Assembly (NCBI GenBank): GCA_023137595.1
Contig: JAGLOZ010000071.1
Span: 1-39,386, forward strand
Length of the DNA stretch: 39,386 bases
DNA from: Minisyncoccota bacterium
Lineage (GTDB): Bacteria; Patescibacteriota; Minisyncoccia; JAHIHE01; JAGLIN01
Reading direction: 5' to 3'
Made by a program: the position numbers and the translations under genes. The first letter of the stretch is position 1, and the number at the start of each line of letters is the position of its first letter. The notes under the pieces are model-generated. The model saw nothing but the letters and a program-made list of their open reading frames with translations. It did not search any database and was not told where the DNA came from. This document shows, one piece after another, positions 4,520-33,736 of this stretch.

Positions 4520-4627
4520 AAAGCCTTCCGCCAGCTGATAGCGCCTTTCGGAGCTATCACTATACTCTTTCGAGTATAGACTCATCCTACAAAGTACTGG
4601 CTAGAAAGCCATTTCTATGTAGGATGA
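4520..4627 (-). promoter_or_regulatory. structured leader RNA upstream of the Shedu-like gene (three consecutive hairpins, two with GAAA loops)
   Basis: On the minus strand: CTCATCCTACA...TGTAGGATGAG (11 bp, enclosing tagaaatggctttcta), then CTATACTC-GAAA-GAGTATAG, then GATAGCtCC-GAAA-GGcGCTATC, followed by ggcggaaggctttttt (T6 run). Confidence 0.6.
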
Positions 4628-4756
4628 GATTTAAACCATACTCCATCCCAAACACTAGGGACAAAGGTTAGGTTACTAAATTGTTACTTAATATCACACC
4701 AAACAAAATAGTCAATCAAAAAATAAAAAATTAAATGATAAAATAGAGAAAAATAG

Positions 4757-6205: not shown

Positions 6206-6259
6206 ATAGAAATATAGTGTATTTTGCAACGGCCGTTGCAAAATACACTATATTTCTAT
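6206..6259. repeat. perfect 54-nt palindrome
   Basis: ATAGAAATATAGTGTATTTTGCAACGG|CCGTTGCAAAATACACTATATTTCTAT equals its own reverse complement. Confidence 0.95.
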
Positions 6260-6911: not shown

Positions 6912-7122
6912 TGTCATTCTGAACTTGGTTCAGAATCTTTCAACTATTACACCAAACAAGTCCATAAAATCATTGAATCTTTCGCTTAGGACGAAAACTC
7001 AATTGCTGTCTTTAGTATAAATAAAAAGATGATTGCATTTGCGTCGTAGACGAAAGGCAATATTAAAATAGGATAAATTGAACCTAAAATATAATAGATT
7101 CTGAAACAAGTTAGAATGACAA
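6912..7122. mobile_element. MITE-like element, family 1 copy A
   Basis: Terminal inverted repeats tgtcattctgaacttggttcagaatct ... agattctgaaacaagttagaatgaca; internal sequence related to 32196-32396. Confidence 0.75.
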
Positions 7123-29861: not shown

Positions 29862-30022
29862 TGTCATTCTTAAACTTGTTTCAGAATCTTTAAGCTGTTA
29901 AATTGAAACAAGTCTATAAATTACCAATATAGAGTTTATTGCGTTGAATATGACTAGATATAGCAGTTAAAAGATTCTGAACTAAGCTTGTCCTGAGCTT
30001 GTCGAATGGATTCAGGATGACA
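29862..30022. mobile_element. MITE-like element, family 1 copy C (divergent/composite)
   Basis: tgtcattcttaaacttgtttcagaatctt ... aagattctgaactaagcttgtcctgagcttgtcgaatggattcaggatgaca. Confidence 0.55.
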
Positions 30023-32142: not shown

Positions 32143-32195
32143 ATTTTTAGGGCTTACGAGTATTTTCGGTTTATATATAATTCAACTCTATGAAT

Positions 32196-32396
32196 TGTCA
32201 TTCTGAACTTGTTTCAGAATCTATTTTCTCTTACGATTAGCCAGGCCCATAAATCACAAAACTTTTAAATGAAGTTGAAAACACAATAGCTGTCATAGAA
32301 AGATAATTGTATTTGCGTTGTAGATGAAAGTATAGTGTTAAATGGCGTAAATTTAACCTAAAACAACAAAGATTCTGAAACAAGTTCAGAATGACA
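32196..32396. mobile_element. MITE-like element, family 1 copy B
   Basis: Perfect 27-bp TIR tgtcattctgaacttgtttcagaatct. Confidence 0.8.
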
Positions 32397-32428
32397 GTTT
32401 AGTGAACTCAGAATAGCGCCGCTGCAAA

Positions 32429-33098: not shown

Positions 33099-33736
33099 AC
33101 GCTTAAGTTTTAAGGTGATAAGCTAGATAATCGCCCAGCACCAAGTTTTACAAGATAATTTGTATCAATAAGTTAAACTTAGTTTTACTAAAATAAATTA
33201 TTGAGTAATATTGTAATGTAAAACTTGGTGCGGGGAGGAAAGTCCGAACACCCATCCCGAGTTTTCGGGATGAAGTAGGCAGTTGTTAACGGCAACCGTT
33301 CCGATTACTCGGGATAGGGAAAGTGCCACAGAGACTATACTACCCAGTACCAAGTTTGTGTATTAGTCAGATATTTTATGCAATAATAAACTTATCTTTA
33401 TAATTGCAATCGTGACCATATTAGTATATAGACTTGGTGCTGGGAAAAGGTGAAAAGTTGAATAATGTTCTAAATCGTTTAACGATTTAGGGCTATATTC
33501 TTTCCTTGTCGGTGACGGCAAGTGATGGTAAACCCTGCCTGGTGCAAGAACAAATCCCTTATTTGGGAAAAAAGTGGTTCGCATGACTTTGTCAGCAATG
33601 ACAAAGCTAGATAGATGATTATCACCCCAATTTCTTTCAGAAGCTGAGCTTCCAATTGGAAGCTCAGCTTCTGAAAGAAATTGGGGAACAGAATTCGGCT
33701 TATTGCTTGTTGCCTTTGAACTCAAGCGTTTTTTTT
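33096..33736 (+). ncRNA. rnpB: RNase P RNA (bacterial type A-like, enlarged)
   Basis: P1 pairing AAAACGCTT.../...CAAGCGTTTT; CR-I GAGGAAAGTCCGAAC; GGGAAAGTGCCACAGAGA; GATGGTAAACCC; TGGTGCAAG; TAGATAGATGAT; CR-V ACAGAATTCGGCTTAT; T-run at the end. Confidence 0.93.

Follow-up and report, generated by a model that had tools for sequence, protein, structure and literature searches.

Rickettsia palindromic elements (RPEs) are dispersed palindromes found in frame within conserved genes, in intergenic DNA and in the genes for tmRNA and M1 RNA; Wolbachia has comparable protein-coding palindromes (PMC2229807; PMC10969869). REP elements are likewise short dispersed palindromes, of 20–40 bp (PMC3733652), and are seldom found in coding regions (PMC12306157). 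CPR bacteria have been reported to carry rnpB genes that have unusually long helices and score poorly with Rfam models (PMC8172020). Among the helices of RNase P RNA, P19 is variable in length and has been lost repeatedly (PMC12974513).

Here we analyse a palindrome in the rnpB gene of a Minisyncoccota bacterium. The window – the whole stretch of DNA analysed, 39,386 nt – belongs to a metagenome-type draft genome of 1.1 Mb in 104 contigs.

The rnpB gene and its enlarged helices

The gene and its two 102-nt hairpins are placed as follows:

33107–33721, plus strand: rnpB, class A RNase P RNA, from P1 to P1 (RF00010, 114 bits; P1/P2 read from the sequence; fold)
33134–33235, plus strand: enlarged P3, a 102-nt hairpin, matching the P19 insert of a related genome (G001) at 74% identity over 103 nt
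33343–33444, plus strand: enlarged P12, a 102-nt hairpin, 75% identical over 103 nt to the hairpin of a P9-like helix in the rnpB of G001

The match to RF00010 (33198–33717) scores 114.4 bits against a gathering threshold of 100, as expected of a class A RNA, and the conserved regions are present. Because P3 is enlarged, the Rfam alignment sets the 5′ end in the wrong place: its match begins too late, and the true end lies near 33107, as indicated by P1 (33107–33123 paired with 33705–33721), P2 (33126–33132 paired with 33617–33623), both read from the sequence, and the long P3. Unconstrained folding of 33105–33733 gives P1, the long P3, a long P12 and a P19 hairpin of 31 bp.

The P19 hairpin is the palindrome, the parts of which are distinguished below (no strand is assigned to any of them):

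33625–33686: enlarged P19, a perfect 62-nt palindrome forming a 31-bp helix (reverse-complement check, folding energy)
33625–33638: left outer arm, site-specific (comparison with relatives; flank symmetry test)
33639–33672: 34-nt core of a dispersed palindromic element, AGAAGCTGAGCTTCCAATTGGAAGCTCAGCTTCT (match to model R1, E=1.1e-16; copies elsewhere in its own and related genomes)
33673–33686: right outer arm, mirroring the left one (comparison with relatives; flank symmetry test)

All 62 nt equal their own reverse complement: the 31-nt arms are 100% complementary and spacer-free, and the perfect helix has a predicted folding energy of −55.3 kcal/mol. Chance alone, at the composition of the window, would give ∼2e-13 such palindromes. 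The sequence lies inside the RF00010 match with TAGATAGATGATTATC and ACAGAATTCGGCTTA on either side, that is, with the 3′ strand of P2 on one side and the ACAGAA/P4 strand on the other; the initial annotation, which had reported a perfect palindrome inside rnpB between two conserved blocks, was correct on both counts. A transcription terminator is ruled out by the lack of a T-run 3′ of the palindrome and by its position upstream of P4.

The P3 and P12 hairpins have relatives that occupy other rnpB helices in other species, and in G001 the insert in P19 has an inverted counterpart, 88% identical, in a different helix of the same rnpB. Outside rnpB, the window's genome holds no hairpin of this type except one weak partial match. 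The ∼102-nt hairpins apparently move between helices and, since related ones sit at different helices in different species, peripheral helices seem to act as hairpin landing pads in this rnpB family. Hairpins of ∼102 nt with arms CCC[CA]GCACCAAGTTT were also seen at differing helix tips in the rnpB genes L049 (G001), L029 (G012) and L050 (G007).

The P19 helix in related genomes

The initial annotation took the palindrome to be inserted where only a few nucleotides separate the two blocks in E. coli M1 RNA, and named an equivalent covarying helix in relatives as evidence against an insertion. Insertion into a mere linker is not supported: close relatives do have a covarying helix at that position, and the palindrome occupies the optional helix P19 between P2 and P4, as judged by RF00010 and by covariation in 14 genomes. 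In most close relatives P19 is a short hairpin of ∼5–8 bp, for example TTTTGAC-ttcg-GTCAAAA in G003 and CCTTG-gatttatt-CAAGG in G013. It is present in all 14 aligned genomes (the window and 13 relatives); 98.8% of cells in its six outer pairs are paired and 6/6 pairs show double changes, figures biased towards pairing by hand-trimming of the rows to six pairs. No shuffle reached either the observed pairing or the observed covariation score. Given this covariation P19 is ancestral: the novelty in the window's rnpB is its enlargement to 31 bp.

Set against relatives, the first 5–6 nt of the left outer arm (CCCCAA) answer to the stem of the ancestral P19 and the remainder of that arm to its loop, while the final 6 nt of the right arm (TTGGGG) correspond to the ancestral 3′ strand. 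This yields an approximate outline of CCCCAA-loop-TTGGGG, reconstructed for the window's species from the rnpB of other genera; the mirror sequence at the site is GAAAGAAA. The palindrome is therefore read here as both things at once: an ancestral stem, and the probable enlargement of that stem by a mobile palindrome.

Long P19 inserts of other kinds occur in G001 (a 101-nt hairpin), G008, G012 and G017; among the rnpB genes compared, the 34-nt core is found in P19 only in that of the window. In the G017 rnpB (L036), P19 is occupied by a dispersed repeat of another kind, which has many copies in G017 and also occurs in the window's genome; because a second dispersed repeat sits there, the P19 site can be said to tolerate inserts.

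A dispersed 34-nt element

The inner 34 nt of the rnpB palindrome differ little or not at all from copies in tsaD (contig C33), in a murF-like ORF (C94) and in intergenic DNA (C50) of the same genome (E=1e-16); a degenerate copy lies in an ORF on C10, and there are others. Searches with R1, a covariance model built on the 34-nt hairpin and an approach that favours well-paired copies, gave matches at ∼12 places in the window's genome and ∼26 in G004, with fewer in G001, G008, G009, G003 and G007. Across the class, 46 of 286 genomes have matches at E≤1e-5, with E-values that rest on a short calibration; G178 and G228, like G004, are rich in copies.

Scanning for exact 18-nt matches, with one genome for each of 85,462 species, gave arm-bearing copies in Niyogibacteria, Kaiserbacteria, Falkowbacteria, C14-28 and G004; no Rickettsia record is among its listed matches. 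Most core matches outside Patescibacteria (Flavobacteria and others) were discarded as chance: they are without outer arms, and many are T-flanked and terminator-like.

Both the term "inserted" and the suggestion of mobility in the initial annotation thus find support: the core recurs at unrelated loci in its own and related genomes, and same-genus genomes show empty sites. On the strength of these sequence comparisons, the rnpB palindrome counts as a single copy of a small palindromic repeat that many Patescibacteria carry and that has spread through their essential genes.

The window contains other repeats and one further RNA. A second perfect palindrome of 54 nt (6206–6259, core TTTTGCAACGGCCGTTGCAAAA) has related copies on contigs C82, C50, C26, C102 and C17. 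At 32193–32399, 29872–29989 and 6922–7112 lie inverted repeats based on CTTGTTTCAGAATCT, which apparently form a further dispersed family. A LOOT RNA (RF03000, 69.6 bits) lies on the minus strand at 4537–4674.

Copies within protein-coding genes

Of 71 copies examined, 53 lie inside ORFs of at least 120 aa, and 45 of these are read in the same frame (A), encoding (L/K)EAxLPxGSxAS; the other two frames account for four each. In copies with both A and B open, the frame read is A in 22 cases and B in three (p=1.6e-4, related copies being non-independent). By NCBIfam name the hosts include TsaD, ValS, a MurF-like ligase, PolA, LspA, RsmA, TopA, PEP synthase, DusB, CysS, RecO, RecJ, ArgS, glutamate dehydrogenase and MnmA. 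Many of the host genes are essential (tsaD, valS, murF, polA, topA, recO, mnmA, cysS).

Empty sites are evident within a genus: G009 and G011 are without the insert at several sites occupied in G004, including topA and pps. At topA, G004 reads LGIKTKEV-LEAGLPIGSPAS-KTFAKNYKRI where a same-genus relative has LGSNPYKRI. The tsaD site is less clear, its exact pre-insertion sequence being ambiguous because relatives have variable loops there. In a loop of ValS (L104, L188–L197) different relatives hold different repeat insertions, which suggests that tolerant loops are hot spots. A shared ancestral valS insertion, considered for G000 and G004 with copies in this same loop, was set aside on that ground: the pattern fits a tolerant hot spot better than clear descent.

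Mirror-symmetric flanks

Symmetry often extends past the core: for 14 nt in rnpB, 11 in tsaD, and 16 and 11 in two copies from G008. Each site has long outer arms of its own sequence, but a short outer extension, TTTT/AAAA, is met repeatedly. Perfect flank symmetry of at least 5 nt is found in 16 of 72 copies against 0.8 expected when flanks of different copies are paired, and of at least 10 nt in four of 72 against 0.03 by the same null; 39 of the 72 have none. Roughly one copy in four, that in rnpB among them, carries mirror-symmetric flanks of site-specific sequence. That the outer arms are part of a longer element is ruled out, as the longest arms vary between sites. Direct repeats, the target site duplications by which MITEs are recognised, were not apparent in the flanks inspected; the flanks show inverted symmetry instead.

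Changes within the core follow the same pattern: they affect both sides in 92 cells and one side in eight, with few G·U intermediates, from which it follows that intermediates are rare. Symmetric flanks, together with symmetric core changes that lack intermediates, would fit mirror copying at the level of DNA, by hairpin-templated repair or by template switching, with the reservation that a hairpin-based search is biased towards paired copies.

Origin and fate of the rnpB hairpin

The reading we favour, with a probability of about 0.83, is that a copy of the dispersed Patescibacteria element entered P19, a helix already present, at its tip and has been retained, unspliced, as a tolerated protruding helix. 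The element would spread as a DNA hairpin, either pasted into a site or copied there through template switching; when the hairpin is repaired or replicated, the bases beside it would be mirrored, giving rise to site-specific outer arms (14 nt in rnpB) and symmetric core substitutions. The rnpB RNA would remain unspliced, with the 31-bp P19 protruding beside P2, and the encoded peptide would be tolerated in protein loops in the same way.

The order of events could be reversed: the element may prefer existing hairpin loops, so that the outer arms would be inverted repeats older than the insertion, target rather than product, the target in rnpB being the P19 hairpin. The outer 5–6 bp in rnpB do match the ancestral stem. 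However, the P19 loops of relatives are not self-complementary in the manner of the full 14-nt arms, tsaD relatives have no inverted repeat at the insertion point, and flank symmetry is absent from more than half of the copies; we consider this order improbable. That P19 simply grew long by mutation, its likeness to other palindromes being coincidental, is scarcely credible: the helix is indeed ancestral and variable in length (PMC12974513), but the core would then match copies in tsaD, murF and intergenic DNA (E=1e-16) by accident. Much the same holds for a false fold-back joined during assembly of a short-read contig. A metagenome-type draft in 104 contigs invites such suspicion, yet genuine rnpB continues on both sides of the palindrome and the same core palindrome occurs at other loci in independent genomes, leaving an artefact very unlikely.

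As to what becomes of the hairpin in the RNA, the initial annotation had offered excision, protrusion and fragmentation. Excision, or an intron, was set aside, as no sign of it and no supporting feature was seen. RNase III is established in other bacteria as an enzyme that cuts long insertion helices of rRNA, and cleavage within P19 is conceivable here because the window's genome encodes RNase III (rnc, above cut-off); the ribozyme would then consist of two pieces held together by P1, P2 and P4. A perfect 31-bp helix of −55 kcal/mol would be a suitable substrate, but the sequence gives no indication of fragmentation, which we rate as unlikely, if worth keeping in mind. Retention as a protruding P19 is most likely: P19 is naturally variable in length and some relatives have other long inserts in it, which favours protrusion, and these inserts together with the intact flanking conserved blocks make a tolerated helix the simplest reading.

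More tentatively, at somewhat short of even odds, we suggest a wider picture in which minimal DNA hairpins propagate across a class of Patescibacteria by hairpin-templated copying, their flanks rewritten as mirrors by insertion and later repair, the palindrome thereby lengthened with site-specific sequence and both arms kept matched, with no transposase of their own; such hairpins would enter both essential proteins, in frame, and the RNA of RNase P, with its peripheral helices as landing pads.

Comparison with known systems

In the literature on palindromes in Patescibacteria/Parcubacteria and on CPR RNase P, judged mostly by titles and abstracts, we found no description of the element. Dispersed repeats inside rnpB have a reported precedent in cyanobacteria, where Vioque is said to have described STRR repeats in 1997 (cited in PMC2858038). 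The likeness ends there: STRR are tandem short repeats, not a palindrome. With REPs the element shares the form of a short dispersed palindrome, but its copies lie mostly in ORFs (53/71) and not in extragenic DNA. With regard to the extended helices of CPR RNase P RNAs, for which the available part of PMC8172020 states no origin, one extension can here be traced to a dispersed element, and the present case thereby gives an origin for one of them.

A mechanistic clue comes from mirror flanks that are specific to each site and from the rarity of G·U intermediates, which make the spread of the palindromes testable by same-species comparison.

The closest parallel is with RPEs. Both are dispersed and palindromic, both sit within conserved protein genes, in frame and with one reading frame preferred, and both have entered the RNase P RNA (M1 RNA) gene. 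They differ in that RPEs are 105–146 bp long, have 12-bp terminal inverted repeats and belong to Alphaproteobacteria, whereas the element described here has a near-perfect 34-nt core, reaches up to 62 nt with its site-specific mirror arms and belongs to Patescibacteria. Because it falls outside the RPE length range we do not file it as an RPE; it appears to work like one, a likeness seen at the level of features. It suggests that palindromes of the Rickettsia style, invading both proteins and a ribozyme, arose in another phylum of reduced genomes.
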